A DNA stretch of 64,000 nucleotides from assembly GCA_032595675.1 (NCBI GenBank), contig JAVQMD010000001.1, positions 2,016,640-2,080,639 of the forward strand. Reading direction: 5' to 3'. Shown piece after piece: positions 4,890 through 44,483 of this stretch. The stretch is from Candidatus Electrothrix rattekaaiensis. Lineage in GTDB: Bacteria > Desulfobacterota > Desulfobulbia > Desulfobulbales > Desulfobulbaceae. The position numbers were made by a program, and so were the translations under genes. The notes below the pieces were generated by a model. The model made no database searches. It was not told the DNA's origin and saw nothing but the letters and a program-made list of their open reading frames with translations. Position 1 is the stretch's first letter. Each line of letters starts with the position of its first letter.

Positions 4890-5135
4890 TTACGCGTTTT
4901 TCTTAAAGAAAAGAATAATACCGGTTACAGCCACAGCGAGCAGGCCCAGCCCTGCAATACAACCGACATAGGGAGCGATAATCTCCCAGGTATGGATAGA
5001 GACGAGAAATTCCTTTATATCCTTGCTATAGACCCCTGCTTTTCTGAACAGTAAGGCACAGCCGGAAACTCCGAGAAGAATAAATAACGGAGCAAAGGTG
5101 ATTGCTGTTATGCGGTGCAATTTCCTGATTTTCAT
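4890..5135 (-). CDS. PepSY-associated TM-type small membrane protein
   Basis: An 81-residue protein with two hydrophobic segments (about residues 10-30 and 55-76) and the start KIRKLHRITAITFAPLFILL, a pattern typical of PepSY-associated membrane proteins. The short periplasmic stretch has VSIHTWEI. Such proteins are often found beside OmpR-type two-component systems. It lies 98 bases downstream of the histidine kinase on the same strand, so it is probably in the same transcript. The start has GGAG 7 bases upstream. Function not known; a modulating role on the neighbouring kinase is only a guess from position. Confidence 0.75.
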   Translation of the reverse strand: MKIRKLHRITAITFAPLFILLGVSGCALLFRKAGVYSKDIKEFLVSIHTWEIIAPYVGCIAGLGLLAVAVTGIILFFKKNA

Positions 5136-5233: not shown

Positions 5234-6655
5234 TCAAATGAGTCGCCCTTCCTGCGTCGTATCATGGAGAGGCAGGGTTATGGTAAAACAGGCTCCGCCG
5301 AATTCCGCATTGCAAACTTCGATCTCCCCGTGATGGCTTGCAACAACGGCCTTGGTTATACTCAGACCGAGGCCGGTTCCCTTAATCGTTTTCACGGCTT
5401 CAGATCGGTAAAACTTATGAAAGACCTGTTCCAGTTCATGTTCCGGGATGCCAATCCCAGTATCCTGGACAGTCAGTACCACCTTGTTATCACGGCATTG
5501 CAGAGACACGGACACCGATCCTTTCGGATGATTATAATAGACCGCATTCTCCAAAAGATTGGACACACCCTCTGTCAAGGCATCCTTATCTCCTAGGACG
5601 ATCATCTCATCATCTTCCTTCCGACGAATTTTAATATGATGTTCCTTGGCCAGAGGGCGAATAAGCGCTATTGCATTGTCAAGACAGCTATTTAAAGAGA
5701 TCAAATGAAAGGAGGTGGACAGGATACCCGAATCAATCCGGGCCAGAGTCAGCATACCGTTGACCTGCCTCAGCATGGTATCGGAAACCGTTCTGACTTC
5801 CCGCAGACTCTCGGCATATTCCTCCCCTGAACGTTCCTTCATCAGGGCGATATCGCATTCGGCCCGGATAACGGCCAAAGGTGTTTTCAGCTCATGAGCC
5901 GCATTGGCGATCAGTTCTTTTTCCGCATCAAAGGCTGTTTGCAGGCGTTCCAGCAGAGAGTTAAAGCGTTCCGCAAAAACATGCAGTTCACGGGCAAACC
6001 CGTTGGGGCCTATTCTTTTTCCCAGATTCTTATGGGTGATTCGTTCCAAGGCATCGGCAAAAATCGTTAACGGGCGCAAAGCATGTGATGATATAAGGTA
6101 CCCAACGATCCCGATCAGGAGAATAAAAAACGGGGTGAGCAGATAAAAAAAACGCTCCAGCTTGGAAAGTATTGTAACGGTTTCCGCCAAGGTCTCGGCT
6201 ACCCGTATGGAAACCTCTTTATCCTGTATTGCAAAGTCGTTCCTAAGCACAAGCAACGGCTCCCCGGCAGGGCCTGTTGTTCGATAGAGCCACTCCCGCG
6301 CTTCCGCATCATAGGATTCCGGCGTGTCGGAGATCAAATTAAAGAGGGAAGGCTGCATGGACGGGGAAGTCAAATACAAATTTTCATCTATAAACACCTG
6401 ATAATAATGTCCTGAACTCGGGATGGAGTATTCACCCCGGGCAACTTCGGCAAGCTCGACCTCAATATAGTTTGCATGTGCATGGATGAGCCCTTTCATA
6501 ATCTGCAATTTGGAGTGCAGTACATTAGTAACCGAATGAAAAGCAACCTTTTCGAACTGATGCAGCAGAACAAAATCAAGCAGAATGACCAGCACTGCAC
6601 CTGCAAGAAGAATCCAGAGCACCAGCCTGCCTTTTATTGAGCCTCCGGCTTTCAT
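5234..6655 (-). CDS. Membrane sensor histidine kinase (OmpR-system type)
   Basis: 473 residues: TM1 about 10-32, a periplasmic sensor region 33-165 with no family I recognise, TM2 about 169-190, a HAMP-like linker, the phospho-accepting box ANAAHELKTP (His254), and the ATPase domain with N box NLLENAVYYN, DTGIGIPE and GTGLGLS. The kinase phosphorylates the regulator encoded just upstream; its ATG (6653-6655) overlaps the regulator stop (ATGA), so they are translationally coupled. The C-terminal half resembles metal- or envelope-stress sensors (FYRSEAVKTIKGTGLGL), but the signal cannot be read from sequence. The linked regulon candidates (small Met- or Cys-rich secreted proteins) would fit an envelope or metal signal. 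Confidence 0.9.
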   Translation of the reverse strand: MKAGGSIKGRLVLWILLAGAVLVILLDFVLLHQFEKVAFHSVTNVLHSKLQIMKGLIHAHANYIEVELAEVARGEYSIPSSGHYYQVFIDENLYLTSPSMQPSLFNLISDTPESYDAEAREWLYRTTGPAGEPLLVLRNDFAIQDKEVSIRVAETLAETVTILSKLERFFYLLTPFFILLIGIVGYLISSHALRPLTIFADALERITHKNLGKRIGPNGFARELHVFAERFNSLLERLQTAFDAEKELIANAAHELKTPLAVIRAECDIALMKERSGEEYAESLREVRTVSDTMLRQVNGMLTLARIDSGILSTSFHLISLNSCLDNAIALIRPLAKEHHIKIRRKEDDEMIVLGDKDALTEGVSNLLENAVYYNHPKGSVSVSLQCRDNKVVLTVQDTGIGIPEHELEQVFHKFYRSEAVKTIKGTGLGLSITKAVVASHHGEIEVCNAEFGGACFTITLPLHDTTQEGRLI

Positions 6656-7329
6656 TGCTCCTCATGCGGGATATAATACCCCACTCCTCTCTTGGTCTGA
6701 ATCAGCTTGTGCTCGTGCCCCTTATCTATTTTTTTACGGAGCTTATTGATATAAACATCAATAATATTACTGTCCAAATCAAAGTCTCCGTCATAAACAT
6801 GCTCAGAAAATTCGGTCCTACTGACGACTCTGCCCTTATTCAAAATCAGGTATTCCAGAACAGCATACTCCTTGGCGGAAAGCAATATTTCTCTTTCAGC
6901 CCTAAAGGCTGTTTTAGCATTCAGGTCAAGGCGGAGATCCGCGATCTGCACCGCTGAGGCAGGCTGTCCCTTATTTCTTCGAATCACGGCAGTCAAGCGA
7001 GCAAGAAGTTCTGCAAAGTCAAAGGGTTTTGGAATGTAATCATCCGCGCCCCGATTCAAGCCCTTAACCCGACTCTCCACCTCTGCTCGTGCGGTGAGCA
7101 TAAGCACAGGCACCTCAACCCCCTGCTTGCGCAAGTTTTCAAGGACGTCAAAACCGTCCATCTTGGGCAGCATGACATCAAGCAACACTGCATCATAAGG
7201 AAAGGTCTCGGCCATATACAGTCCTTCTTCGCCGTCAAAGCAAAGGTCAACCGCATAGGAATTCTCTTCTAGCCCCTTTTTCAACAGAGCAGCCAGTCGC
7301 TGCTCGTCTTCAACAATAAGAATTTTCAT
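6652..7329 (-). CDS. OmpR/PhoB-family response regulator
   Basis: 225 residues when started at MKILIVEDE (ATG at 7329), the conserved start of this family; a frame extension upstream to 7386 adds 19 residues with no similarity and is not preferred. The receiver has acidic residues ED near the start, the phospho-acceptor Asp51 (LLDVMLPKMDG) and Lys101 (YIPKPFDF). The DNA-binding winged helix follows from about residue 125, with VDVYINKLRKKI and TKRGVGYYI. It overlaps the kinase by 4 bases. Regulators of this class bind direct repeats with 11-bp spacing; such repeats occur in front of the small secreted gene at 7579 and again at 42638 and 43232, which makes it the local candidate binder (inference). 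Confidence 0.93.
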   Translation of the reverse strand: MKILIVEDEQRLAALLKKGLEENSYAVDLCFDGEEGLYMAETFPYDAVLLDVMLPKMDGFDVLENLRKQGVEVPVLMLTARAEVESRVKGLNRGADDYIPKPFDFAELLARLTAVIRRNKGQPASAVQIADLRLDLNAKTAFRAEREILLSAKEYAVLEYLILNKGRVVSRTEFSEHVYDGDFDLDSNIIDVYINKLRKKIDKGHEHKLIQTKRGVGYYIPHEEQ

Positions 7330-7417: not shown

Positions 7418-7579
7418 TCAGTCCCGATCACCGGACCGCCCCCGATACTCACGCCCCTCGTTCTCATACCGTTCCCCACGTTCATAGCGTTCGTCATCTC
7501 CATCCCCGCTCGCCATGCCTGCGCCTGTAAATGTTGCGACGAAAAACAAAGCACCGAATATAACCATACCTTTTTTCAT
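7418..7579 (-). CDS. Small secreted charged peptide, unknown
   Basis: 53 residues from ATG 7579, chosen because AAGGAG lies 8 bases upstream; a longer frame to 7642 adds 21 basic residues without a ribosome site. Residues 1-24 are a signal peptide (MKKGMVIFGALFFVATFTGA). The mature part, about 28 residues, is almost all charged or Gly (repeats of ERYERGERYENEGREYRG). It lies 89 bases upstream of the response regulator in the same direction and has the 11-bp direct repeats at 7649-7677 in front. It may be a shortened form of a longer secreted protein; I do not recognise the family. Confidence 0.65.
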   Translation of the reverse strand: MKKGMVIFGALFFVATFTGAGMASGDGDDERYERGERYENEGREYRGRSGDRD

Positions 7580-7648
7580 GTTTTTTCTCCTTTCCTTTCT
7601 GCGTCTTTTCAGCGGAATCGCTGCCTGATTCCGTCCTTCCACTACAGT

Positions 7649-7677
7649 ACCGGAACAAAGATGAACACAAGATGAAG
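7649..7677 (-). promoter_or_regulatory. Direct repeats with 11-bp period, likely OmpR-family operator
   Basis: Read on the minus strand: TTCATCTTGTG followed directly by TTCATCTTTGT and then TCCGG. The repeat starts are 11 bases apart. The site ends about 70 bases before the ATG at 7579. The same core (TTCATSTT) in the same period is found at 42638-42681 and 43232-43275. Confidence 0.65.
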
Positions 7678-9702: not shown

Positions 9703-10854
9703 TTAAAGAACTTGCCAGTACCCCCCTTTGGCTGGGCCGATCCTTTTTAGCTTTTCCGTCTGACGGAGTTTACGGATGGCCCGTTCAACAGCACTTTCTG
9801 ATCGGTTGAGAAGGTCTGCAAGTTCTGGAATCGTCATGGTCGGTGTTGCTGTCAGGAATTGGAGAATTTGTTCCGTTGTTTTCCCCAGCGTTTTCCCGGC
9901 GTTTTCCCAGCGTTTCCCCGGCGTTTTGCTTTGTTCCCCTTCACTCTCTTTCCAGAACATTTCCAATCTGGTTTGGTCATAGGGCGTAAAGGTATCAAAA
10001 AGACAAAGGGTTCCGCCGTTGCTTTCCCATCCCTGACGAATTTTCGGCAGACCAGAACCGGCCCGTTCTCCGAGATTGATCATCAGAAAAAGCTGGTGCA
10101 GGGTTTGGTTGCGGCAATCGCTTTATCCGCCTTGCAGGGCCTGCTCTGTCGGCACCCGCATCAAGCCGGGATTGCGAAAGAGAAAGCCTTCAGGGTCTTT
10201 TTTGATAAGAATAGATGCCCGGTCGCTGTAATCAGCATGGACAAGGGTGTTGACCAAGGCCTCCCGTAAGGCACGATGGAGCAGGGTGTCGTCTTGACGA
10301 ACATGGCCCTTGAGCAGAAAGGGTACTTTAAGGTCCGCTGTCAGCTTGCGGGATATCCTCAGGAAAAAATCAAAAATGTTACCGGACCAAGTGCCGTCTG
10401 GGATGACTCTGTCGAGCCAACGGGTATGCGAGCCTTTGTCCTCCCCCTGTTCCTGATAATCGACAAAATAATCAGGAACAGCCTCCTGGATGGAGGGCCA
10501 TTGACCGAACATGAGTAGGCCCGCCAAGGTCAGCCCTTTTTCTCCTGATTGCCGGTCCTGACGAAACCCACCTTGGACGCAGAGAAATTCCTGGTCAGGC
10601 AGGGCATTCCAGGGATGATCTGGGCGCAGAGAGGAAAGCATTTGGCGATATCTGTGCAGGCTTTCAATATCTATGTCATGCAGGTCAAAGCCGGACAGTA
10701 TTTTTTGATCTTGATTGTTGGTAGAATTGCTGTAGGTAGGCCAGAAATCTTTGGGCAGCTGCCCTTTGCCGTCGCGGCCAGCAGCCAGTTTGCATTCAAG
10801 CTCAACGCTTTCCGAGAGGTTGCAGATATCCTGTAATGTCTCGATGTTGACCAT
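9703..10854 (-). pseudogene. Broken ATP-binding / AlbA_2 (Schlafen-like) transcriptional regulator gene
   Basis: Two pieces in one frame are separated by a single TAA at 10123-10125. Before it the protein ends FRNPGLMRVPTEQALQGG; after the stop the same frame reads SDCRNQTLHQLFLMINLGER, the expected continuation of the ATPase-like C-terminal domain in this family. A second lesion is seen near the N-terminus: the AlbA_2 start (ESVELECKLAAGRDGKGQLP then KDFWPTYS) runs straight into the part that normally follows the AlbA domain (QDQKILSGFDLHDIDIESLH), so roughly 120-130 residues are missing. The C-terminal end holds a winged-helix (PELADLLNRSESAVERAIRK). The 5-prime limit is uncertain: the frame is open to 11085, and Met at 10854 is close to the family start. 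The codon lost to TAA was probably GAA. Confidence 0.8.
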
Positions 10855-28050: not shown

Positions 28051-28956
28051 CTATCTATTTTTCAAGCTTTTGACTTCTTCAACAGATAAATCGGTCAGGT
28101 CCGCTATTTCCTGCGCATCAAGCACACCTTTTTTTATCAAATTCATCGCAATCTGAAGAGCCTTCTGTTTTTCACCTTGTATCACTCCTTGTTCAGTTCC
28201 TTTCTCAATACCTTTCATAACGCCGACAGTATACGAGGACTCCACCATACTCGCCTGATAATGCAGGTCGTCCTGATACCGCTCATAAGCCCGGCGTTCT
28301 TCGTCGGACAGCTTGAGGATATCCAGTTCCTGCTTGGCCTTCTCGATTCCCTTGGCCTTGAAGTCGTTCTTGATCTCCTCATTCTTGAGAAAGTAGATCC
28401 ACTCGTCCAGGGTGTCTTTGGCAATATCGTCGAAGTTGTTGACCTTGATTAGATAATATTCTGGAAAAATTTCATGGAGCTTATCCCGTCCGTACAGCTT
28501 TCGCTGTTCATCGGAGAGTTGAAGGAGATCCTGCCCGTGCAGCCCTCGAAACGAAGTGGTGCCGTGATACACGTAGTCAGCCCCATGCCCCAGGTCAAAA
28601 TAGAGAATATTTATGGAAATAACCTTGGCGACCTTTGAGTACGGATCTTTTTTCTGAAGATGCTCGGTAATTACCTTGGAGGTGCCGAATAAAATTCGCT
28701 GGAGATAATCGAACTCCCGCTCATACTGCACCTCAATGATGAGTATTTCCTTCTTCTCATTTAATACCTTGAGGTCAACCCGGTTGAATCTATCGTGCGC
28801 ATCCTCTTTATTGCTCTCGCTTTCGAGCAGTTCCAGAATCGTGACATCCTCCATCAGGAGTTCGCTGAGAAAACCTTCCAGAATCTCAAAGTTGGCCTTG
28901 CTCCGCAGGAGCTTTTTCATGGCCCAGTCAAAGCTGATCAGTCTTCTTTGCGGCAT
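28051..28956 (-). CDS. Rpn family PD-(D/E)XK nuclease (YhgA-like), copy 2
   Basis: 301 residues, same design as the 17524 gene: FDWAMKKLLRSKANFEILEG, Asp in NRVDLKVLNE, E-x-Q in ILIIEVQYE, DTLDEWIYFLKNEEI, and a C-terminal helical end (KKGVLDAQEIADLTDLSVEE). It lacks the long Glu/Ala/Lys coiled coil of copy 1; instead it has short GIEKGTEQGVIQGEKQ repeats. Intact. It lies 24 bases after uvrB's stop on the same strand, so read-through is possible. Confidence 0.85.
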   Translation of the reverse strand: MPQRRLISFDWAMKKLLRSKANFEILEGFLSELLMEDVTILELLESESNKEDAHDRFNRVDLKVLNEKKEILIIEVQYEREFDYLQRILFGTSKVITEHLQKKDPYSKVAKVISINILYFDLGHGADYVYHGTTSFRGLHGQDLLQLSDEQRKLYGRDKLHEIFPEYYLIKVNNFDDIAKDTLDEWIYFLKNEEIKNDFKAKGIEKAKQELDILKLSDEERRAYERYQDDLHYQASMVESSYTVGVMKGIEKGTEQGVIQGEKQKALQIAMNLIKKGVLDAQEIADLTDLSVEEVKSLKNR

Positions 28957-42637: not shown

Positions 42638-42681
42638 TTAATGTTTTGGTAATGTTCTGTTCATCCTCTGTTCACCTTTTG
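42638..42681 (+). promoter_or_regulatory. Four 11-bp direct repeats, likely OmpR-family operator
   Basis: TTAATGTTTTG, GTAATGTTCTG, TTCATCCTCTG and TTCACCTTTTG stand end to end, each 11 bases. The last ends 57 bases before the ATG at 42738. The same arrangement is seen at 43232-43275. Confidence 0.75.
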
Positions 42682-42737
42682 TCAGTTACAGTACAACATG
42701 ATCGTTAATTTGTAACACAACAAAAGGAGTCGGCAAA

Positions 42738-42995
42738 ATGAACAGAAAACAACAACAGCAGCCACGGCCTGTAAGCAGCAAAGAGTATGACTGCCCTCTG
42801 ACCAGGAAGCACGTATTTGTTCAACTTAAAGGGAACAGGAACACTGTTCCCGGAGAGCCTGCGGTCTGCTCCAGTATTGGTGAATGCGGATGCAATGTTG
42901 TCCAAATTATCTACGGTATGAGCTACACTGTGGACTGGCATAAATGCTGTCTCTATAGCCTGTTTAAAGGACAGGACAGCAACCTGGACCATTAA
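42738..42995 (+). CDS. Small Cys-rich hypothetical protein
   Basis: 85 residues, AGGAG 9 bases before ATG. No signal peptide is obvious: the start is polar (MNRKQQQQPRPVSSKEYDCP). Six cysteines in YDC, AVC, GECGC and KCC, which suggests metal binding or disulfides. Unknown family. The frame on the opposite strand (42705-43217) is not preferred because this one has a ribosome site and a clear operator upstream. Confidence 0.6.
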   Translation: MNRKQQQQPRPVSSKEYDCPLTRKHVFVQLKGNRNTVPGEPAVCSSIGECGCNVVQIIYGMSYTVDWHKCCLYSLFKGQDSNLDH

Positions 42996-43029
42996 GCAGA
43001 CACGCCCCGCGTTCTGCCTATATATAGCT

Positions 43030-43061
43030 GATGGAACGGAACAGGAAACATCCGTTTCATC
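43030..43061 (+). terminator. Hairpin after the Cys-rich gene
   Basis: GATGGAACGG and CCGTTTCATC pair over ten positions (one G-T) across a 12-base loop, 35 bases after the stop. No T-run follows, so termination is uncertain. Confidence 0.4.
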
Positions 43062-43231
43062 TTCAGAGTTTCCTCTGCGGCGGCTGTGTCTCCTTGTCTT
43101 CACAGTCGCTGCTCTTTTTTCCGCCTTCTGTAGCTTCCTTCCCTTCCCCCCGTGGTTACGTATTCTTTTCTCTGTTCCGCTCCTCAAGTGAGTATTTTTT
43201 GCCCTGCATTTGAGCAAAAAAAAAGCCTGAT

Positions 43232-43275
43232 TTCATGTTCCGGTCATGTTCCGTTCATCTTCCATTAACCCTGCA
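43232..43275 (+). promoter_or_regulatory. Four 11-bp direct repeats, likely OmpR-family operator
   Basis: TTCATGTTCCG, GTCATGTTCCG, TTCATCTTCCA and TTAACCCTGCA follow one another with period 11. Distance to the next ATG (43345) is about 70 bases. Compared with 42638 the core is TNATGTTYYG. Confidence 0.75.
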
Positions 43276-43344
43276 TGGATTATTGTTCGGCGCAAATAAG
43301 AACAAAAAAGAGGATTAACCTTTTCAACATAAGGAGTAAGCAAG

Positions 43345-43977
43345 ATGAAGAACATGAAGAACAAAAAAAGTCTTTTGGTAACAGCAGTATTAACCGTTAT
43401 CTTTTTTACCGGTTCTGCAAGGGCTGCGGATTTTGCGACAGAAACACAAGACCTGATTACGCAGACCATTACCCGGGTAGTTGAAGCCAACATCAACAAT
43501 GCAGCTGCCGAGAATGTGTCCGGTCAAACGGTGGTCAAGGACATACAGAACAGCATGATGACAAAAATAAGTGATGCTGTGAAACAAAACACCGCTGCGA
43601 GAAAACGTGCGAATGTTGTCCAAACCTGCATGGAATGCCGGGTGATGCAGCCCATAGAGGTTGTTGTGGCCGGGAAGAGCACGCTTCTTAGTGCGGATGT
43701 CCAAGAGCGTATCAATCAGGCAATGGCGAAGAAGATCAAGGAGACCATTCGCGTGATCTCATCCGATCCTGCGGTAGCACGTATGGTGCAGGATCGAATG
43801 ATGGTGCCGCGCATGGCCGCCAGCCCACTTCGGCAGGATATGCAGCCCTTTATGATGAGCAAATTACTGACTGATCCGAATGCAATGAATATGATCGGCA
43901 GTCAGGCCGACAATACTAACAGGCAAGCGGATAAGTTAACCTGCACCGCCGGTGATGCCGGGTTCCCGAACTGCTGA
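43345..43977 (+). CDS. Secreted Met-rich protein, unknown
   Basis: 210 residues from ATG 43345 (AAGGAG 12 bases and AGTAAGCAAG closer). Signal peptide 1-27 (KKSLLVTAVLTVIFFTGSAR then AADF). Helical mature part with about 17 Met residues, several paired (NSMMTK, RMMVPRM, FMMSKL, NAMNMIG), a C-x-x-C (TCMECRVM) and two further Cys near the end. Met pairs and C-x-x-C suggest binding of soft metals such as copper(I), which is inference. It is the first of three close genes. Confidence 0.6.
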   Translation: MKNMKNKKSLLVTAVLTVIFFTGSARAADFATETQDLITQTITRVVEANINNAAAENVSGQTVVKDIQNSMMTKISDAVKQNTAARKRANVVQTCMECRVMQPIEVVVAGKSTLLSADVQERINQAMAKKIKETIRVISSDPAVARMVQDRMMVPRMAASPLRQDMQPFMMSKLLTDPNAMNMIGSQADNTNRQADKLTCTAGDAGFPNC

Positions 43978-44159: not shown

Positions 44160-44483
44160 ATGAAAAAGATAATAATACGATTGGTCTTAGGACTCTTTGC
44201 CGGTTTAATACTGTCCGGCTCCGCTTCCGCTGCGGTACAGATAGACACTACGAGCATTCAGACAACGGTTGATAAGTTAATCACCAAGATGCAGCAGGAA
44301 ACGATCAAACAAAATTTTGCGGCCCTGCTGCTGCAAAACGAAATGCGGGCCAAGATGACGACCGAGCGTGTGCCGCAAAGATTTATGCAGAGCAGCATTC
44401 AGCCTATTGTCCAGCCAGCTATGTTAGAGAGGATTCGTGCGCAGATGCAGGCGCAGCAGATGGAGAGCATGGCAACACGTTAA
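44160..44483 (+). CDS. Secreted Met-rich protein, second copy type
   Basis: 107 residues with signal peptide (IIIRLVLGLFAGLILSGSAS then AAVQ). Helical, about nine Met (NEMRAKMTTERV, RFMQSS, QAQQMESMATR) and no Cys in the mature part. Its design resembles the 43345 protein: signal, TTVDKLITKM-like helix, Met clusters. The ATG follows AGAGAAAAGAAC, a weak ribosome site. A good terminator closes the group at 44557. Confidence 0.55.
   Translation: MKKIIIRLVLGLFAGLILSGSASAAVQIDTTSIQTTVDKLITKMQQETIKQNFAALLLQNEMRAKMTTERVPQRFMQSSIQPIVQPAMLERIRAQMQAQQMESMATR

Follow-up and report, generated by a model that had tools for sequence, protein, structure and literature searches.

The question raised by this locus is what two closely matching sets of short direct repeats, placed in front of two neighbouring units of small genes in Candidatus Electrothrix rattekaaiensis, are for, and which protein might read them. 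The window referred to below is the whole stretch of 64,000 nucleotides that was analysed (C1:2016640-2080639), from an assembly of 4.48 Mb in five contigs. Array 1 (42638-42681, forward strand) consists of four 11-bp direct repeats, TTAATGTTTTG GTAATGTTCTG TTCATCCTCTG TTCACCTTTTG, and array 2 (43232-43275, forward strand) of four more, TTCATGTTCCG GTCATGTTCCG TTCATCTTCCA TTAACCCTGCA, with exactly the coordinates given in the original prediction. Compared with themselves at a lag of 11 bp, the arrays match at 24/33 (array 1) and 25/33 (array 2) positions. Matches this high occur in 0.05% and 0.03% of 44-bp stretches, respectively, and 30 dinucleotide shuffles of the entire 64-kb window never exceeded 21; lags of 9, 10, 12 and 13 were at background in both arrays. 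The two arrays are identical at 31 of 44 positions and each is the other's best match in the window, while the sequence 3' of the fourth unit is not alike. A 26-base pattern common to both gave 2 matches versus 0.00 expected, and Rfam gave no matches at the array locus. The core TNATGTTYYG, proposed earlier for all the repeats, fits units 1 and 2 of either array exactly, but the third (TTCATCYTCYR) and the fourth (TTMACCYTKYR) deviate from it; an improved unit for both arrays is TTMATSTTYYG. Each array is followed, 5 bp in the 3' direction, by a -10-like hexamer, TACAGT (42687-42692, forward) and TATTGT (43281-43286, forward), both at offset 49 counted from the array start.

Behind array 1 lies a gene for an 85-aa Cys-containing protein (42738-42995, forward; 6 Cys), the family of which occurs in 8/8 genomes of the genus and in 0/49 others searched. 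Array 2 precedes a gene for a 210-aa secreted Met-rich protein (43345-43977, forward; 16 Met, 4 Cys) of a family seen in this genus only, and the gene downstream of it, which encodes a 107-aa secreted Met-rich protein (44160-44483, forward; 9 Met), is probably part of the same transcription unit. In G007 and G003, too, a small gene resembling the 107-aa one is found near the 210-aa gene. Searches of Pfam and NCBIfam gave no usable match for any of the three products. The earlier description of these genes as small, Cys- or Met-rich and secreted is borne out for the 210-aa and 107-aa products, which have a signal-peptide-like N-terminus, but not entirely for the 85-aa product, in which no signal peptide could be recognized by eye.

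About 35 kb from the arrays, within the same window, the reverse strand encodes a 225-aa response regulator of the OmpR/PhoB type (6652-7329, with a longer frame to 7386), which is the proposed array binder, and its cognate sensor histidine kinase (5234-6655). The regulator carries PF00072 and PF00486 and the next gene HisKA and HATPase_c, the regulator's domains scoring over the cut-off, as in an operon of the OmpR/PhoB family. An 81-aa PepSY_TM-like membrane protein (4890-5135, reverse; below the Pfam cut-off) is encoded 3' of the kinase. The promoter of this operon contains two repeats, TTCATCTTGTG TTCATCTTTGT (7655-7676, reverse), and a -10-like hexamer, TACTGT (7644-7649, reverse); between this operator and the regulator gene lies a 53-aa peptide (7418-7579, reverse) with a signal-peptide-like start, rich in Arg/Glu/Tyr/Gly. 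The original prediction had proposed a matrix scan, and we scanned both strands of the window using a matrix built from the sites of other genomes alone, with none from the own genome. The two arrays ranked first and second, and the regulator-operon promoter (7644-7676) third, with 24.8 bits on the 33-column core. The next match, with 17.1 bits at 28171 inside a coding region, was at the level of 30 shuffles (maximum 17.7 bits). The site at the regulator promoter has only two repeats and a modest genome-wide E-value of 0.16. Of the genome's five Trans_reg_C regulators, the one at 6652-7329 alone is preceded by a strong site in its promoter.

Beyond the window, a repeats-only pattern detected another complete array, the third, on C3: TTAATCTTCGG TTAATCTTTGG TTCATCTTCCG TTAACCTTTTC, followed by TATTGT at the same offset and preceding a gene for a 125-aa secreted Arg/Tyr/Gly-repeat protein. 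The same pattern detected shorter arrays at C1:2148204 and C2:1022712, with TAnnnT at the same offset; the sites found in this way (L003, L007 and L009) also carry the -10 there. A further site lies in front of a DUF4405 membrane protein (C3:111184); the array matches at C1:2148204, C1:2223800 and C2:1022712 have no clear gene behind them. A sequence-only model, R1, built from nine sites, found further sites in 8/8 genomes of the genus. At least two direct repeats with a period near 11 bp are present at the arrays, in a fixed position relative to the -10: TAnnnT stands at one constant offset in 36/36 compiled sites, a figure that is not independent because their selection relied in part on a matrix containing the -10, while the sites from the repeats-only pattern are independent and agree with it. 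The consensus of the 36 sites is TTCATCTTCCG TTAATCTTTnn TnTGTTATnGT. Conservation is strongest in the two units nearest the promoter (15.5 and 12.4 bits), and the outer two repeats occur at a minority of promoters, arrays 1 and 2 among them; the core operator comprises two repeats and the -10.

The window's strongest period-11 repeat is another one, at 9880-9923, an intergenic run of four tandem 11-bp units TTTYCCCRGCG with a sequence unrelated to arrays 1 and 2. Its presence shows that tandem repeats of this period also arise elsewhere in the window, and arrays 1 and 2 might likewise be a product of slippage with no regulatory role. This can practically be dismissed, as the units of the arrays have diverged and yet kept one core, as conservation is highest next to the promoter, and as the arrays recur at unrelated genes and in other genomes with constant spacing to the -10.

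The matches of the model across the genome mostly precede genes for small secreted proteins. The earlier expectation that they would lie before secreted Met/Cys-rich genes was therefore only partly right: most targets are indeed small and secreted, but Cys/Met-rich proteins are only part of a set that includes small secreted Arg/Tyr/Gly-repeat proteins, the DUF4405 membrane protein and the response regulator gene at 6652-7329. A search of the repeat-protein family found that in genes which come first in their cluster a site usually stands 56-60 bp ahead of the ATG, and that later tandem copies often have none. One copy in G001 has the repeats with the -10 displaced by one base, and one copy in the own genome lies so close to the end of its contig that the matrix could not be applied, although the shortened upstream region still reads TTCCGTTAACCTTTTCTTTGTTATTGT. 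The family forms enlarged clusters of secreted proteins of 90-160 aa (L201, L202, L204, L206, L088) in 8/8 genomes of the genus, with repeats such as RYEYRG, RYYDDRYRG and GSRYEYRGG. A separate conserved array, TTCATCTCGCG TTCATGTTCTG TTAATCTTTCT (L119 2226 and L055 1500), recurs in G000, G003 and G005; no clear gene follows, and it perhaps precedes an RNA or an overlooked small gene.

The arrays have been maintained in relatives. In G003, G004, G006 (two) and G007, each ortholog of the 210-aa gene is preceded by an array in the same phase, and so is the ortholog of the 85-aa gene in G004 and in G007. Other 85-aa paralogs in the genus have no array, so that the array belongs to this locus and not to the 85-aa family. 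One of the two 210-aa family members in G006, the second (L024), has an array but also an in-frame TAA in the matching region, and is perhaps decaying. We conclude that the arrays are a real, conserved operator, which the regulator is predicted to bind directly.

The distribution of the regulator follows that of the arrays. An array precedes the regulator operon in G000-G004, G006 and G007. Among 37 related genomes, regulator orthologs of at least 70% identity were found only in 7/8 members of the genus, G013 and G016, and at least two R1 matches at E<=0.1 only in 8/8 members of the genus, G013 and G016, the last two belonging to two further genera; the sole mismatch between ortholog and arrays is G005, a genome that is 69% complete, and G040 and G042 have one weak R1 match each, as expected by chance. 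The uncorrected Fisher p for this co-occurrence is 8e-8, and 0.0025 with the genus left out, where genomes inside one genus are not independent and those outside it are G013 and G016 only. Gene order points the same way: in G004 and G007 the regulator operon is the divergent neighbour of the 85-aa/210-aa genes, each with its own array, and in G003 and G006 the regulator and these genes are at most 5 kb apart. In G013 and G016, arrays are followed by DUF5666 proteins, cytochrome b561, the regulator and the kinase, all in one direction; in two related genera (L109 4471-8854 and L111 307-2419) the regulator stands behind DUF5666 and cytochrome b561 in what is apparently one operon. These neighbourhoods assign the system to the cell envelope, perhaps with a redox or metal theme. 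Remoter regulator relatives, with 61% identity at most, had no array by matrix score in the stretches fetched, so that the pairing of regulator and array is, as far as seen, confined to this lineage. Taken together, conservation, the site at the regulator's own promoter, co-occurrence and adjacency support the predicted assignment to an OmpR/PhoB-type regulator at 6652-7329, and from these sequence comparisons the arrays are very probably the operators of a self-regulated regulon under this protein and its partner kinase (5234-6655).

Other regulators of the same DNA-binding family are encoded in the genome, namely an OmpR/CpxR-like one (C3), a CusR-like one (C1:612800) and one of a sortase system (C2), and any of these could in principle recognize such repeats. 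That one of them is the binder is very unlikely, since the 12-18 kb around each contain no array-like site as strong as that of the window regulator and none has a genome distribution equal to that of the arrays. The OmpR/CpxR-like regulator was not found in G003 and G013 (genomes 84-89% complete); for one other OmpR-type regulator, five genomes that bear arrays lack a close ortholog, and one is present in three genomes without arrays.

The resemblance to the Pho box deserved separate attention. In E. coli, PhoB-bound direct repeats at phoA and pstS replace the -35 at a fixed distance from the -10; these are 11-bp repeats at the -35 which end 5 bp before the phoA -10, the geometry seen here, and in both systems direct repeats would thus take the place of the -35 at a fixed -10 distance. 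The genome also contains phoB, phoR, phoU and pst, PhoB being called from its phoR/phoU/pst neighbours with a PhoB model score below the curated cut-off. It is nevertheless very unlikely that the arrays are Pho boxes of this PhoB, induced by phosphate starvation: the 18-kb pst/phoU/phoB/phoR region (L045) contains no array (best score 8.8 bits, on the wrong strand), the targets are not phosphate genes, no array lies at pst or phoB genes, and the core TTMAT is unlike TGTCA.

The window regulator and its sites were also compared with other known families. The PmrA/BasR box is YTTAAK-N5-YTTAAK, similar to the half-site TTAAT and the 11-bp period seen here, and BasR is among the regulator's solved relatives; the regulator scores 188 bits on the PmrA model, however, where the cut-off is 330, and nothing among the targets seen points to lipid A modification. 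The best family match of the regulator is TIGR01387, of the CusR/CopR/HprR metal and oxidant regulators, but its 250.3 bits fall short of the curated cut-off of 279.2 for the CusR/CopR heavy-metal regulators; the kinase has its best match in TIGR01386, with 213 bits, also below the curated cut-off. CusR and HprR boxes are inverted repeats, whereas the arrays here are direct, and no metal efflux genes were found among the targets seen, matches having been assigned to genes only in part. A close precedent is E. coli ArcA, whose sites have two to five direct repeats with 11 bp from centre to centre; at astC, a site of four repeats, the ArcA-P footprint spans 44 bp (PMC3798270). The sites here are likewise 11-bp direct repeats, mostly two and some four in a row, with the difference that the compiled sites share one common distance to the -10 and that the target genes are others. 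An ArcA regulon was discarded, as NCBIfam called no ArcA (families listed) among the five Trans_reg_C regulators.

For the regulator at 6652-7329, the geometry suggests a mechanism in which the kinase would first bring about its phosphorylation. Phosphorylated regulators of the OmpR/PhoB family bind direct repeats head to tail, and the window regulator may do so as head-to-tail dimers on the 11-bp repeats, one repeat per helical turn. The basic operator of two repeats would accommodate one dimer, and the four repeats at the 85-aa and 210-aa promoters two dimers; through its two-repeat site, the regulator would act on its own promoter. Ending 5 bp before the -10, the repeats could stand in for the -35 box and lead to the recruitment of RNA polymerase. 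No sigma-70 -35/-10 pair was called at either array, as expected if an activator takes over the -35, and together with the fixed distance to the -10 this favours activation rather than repression, which, like binding and dimer count, is inferred. A regulator that binds the arrays and represses, with the occupied array blocking RNA polymerase at the -35, would also fit sites that overlie the -35 region, and the 11-bp repeat arrays of ArcA largely serve repression (PMC3798270). We consider this unlikely, as no -35 is recognizable under or near the arrays, so that an activator seems to be required, and as the -10 distance is constant at the compiled sites.

A self-regulated OmpR/PhoB-type regulon is an ordinary type of control, applied here to an apparently undescribed gene set: the system was not mentioned in the cable-bacteria papers searched (open-access literature only), which yielded no described regulon for this kind of electricity-conducting bacterium. 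Speculatively, marine cable bacteria might possess in it a two-component regulon that is specific to their lineage, controls itself and drives the expanded family of secreted Arg/Tyr/Gly-repeat proteins together with cytochrome b-type and DUF5666 envelope proteins, possibly as part of the peculiar cell-envelope machinery of the filaments. The analysis yields a regulon that can be checked, with its operator, regulator, kinase and list of targets, in a probably uncultured electricity-conducting bacterium and would tie an orphan secreted repeat-protein family to one signalling system, a prediction that can be tested with purified protein and for which the organism need not be grown.

Two smaller observations concern genes near arrays. 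LTXXQ/Spy-like and EF-hand-like proteins (L115 8153-9233) adjoin the array-preceded DUF4405 gene, with a similar order in G004 (L089). About 110 bp behind a weak array, L012 (4257-4592) encodes a small protein that combines a stretch resembling a signal peptide with a tail of VRVPVPA repeats.
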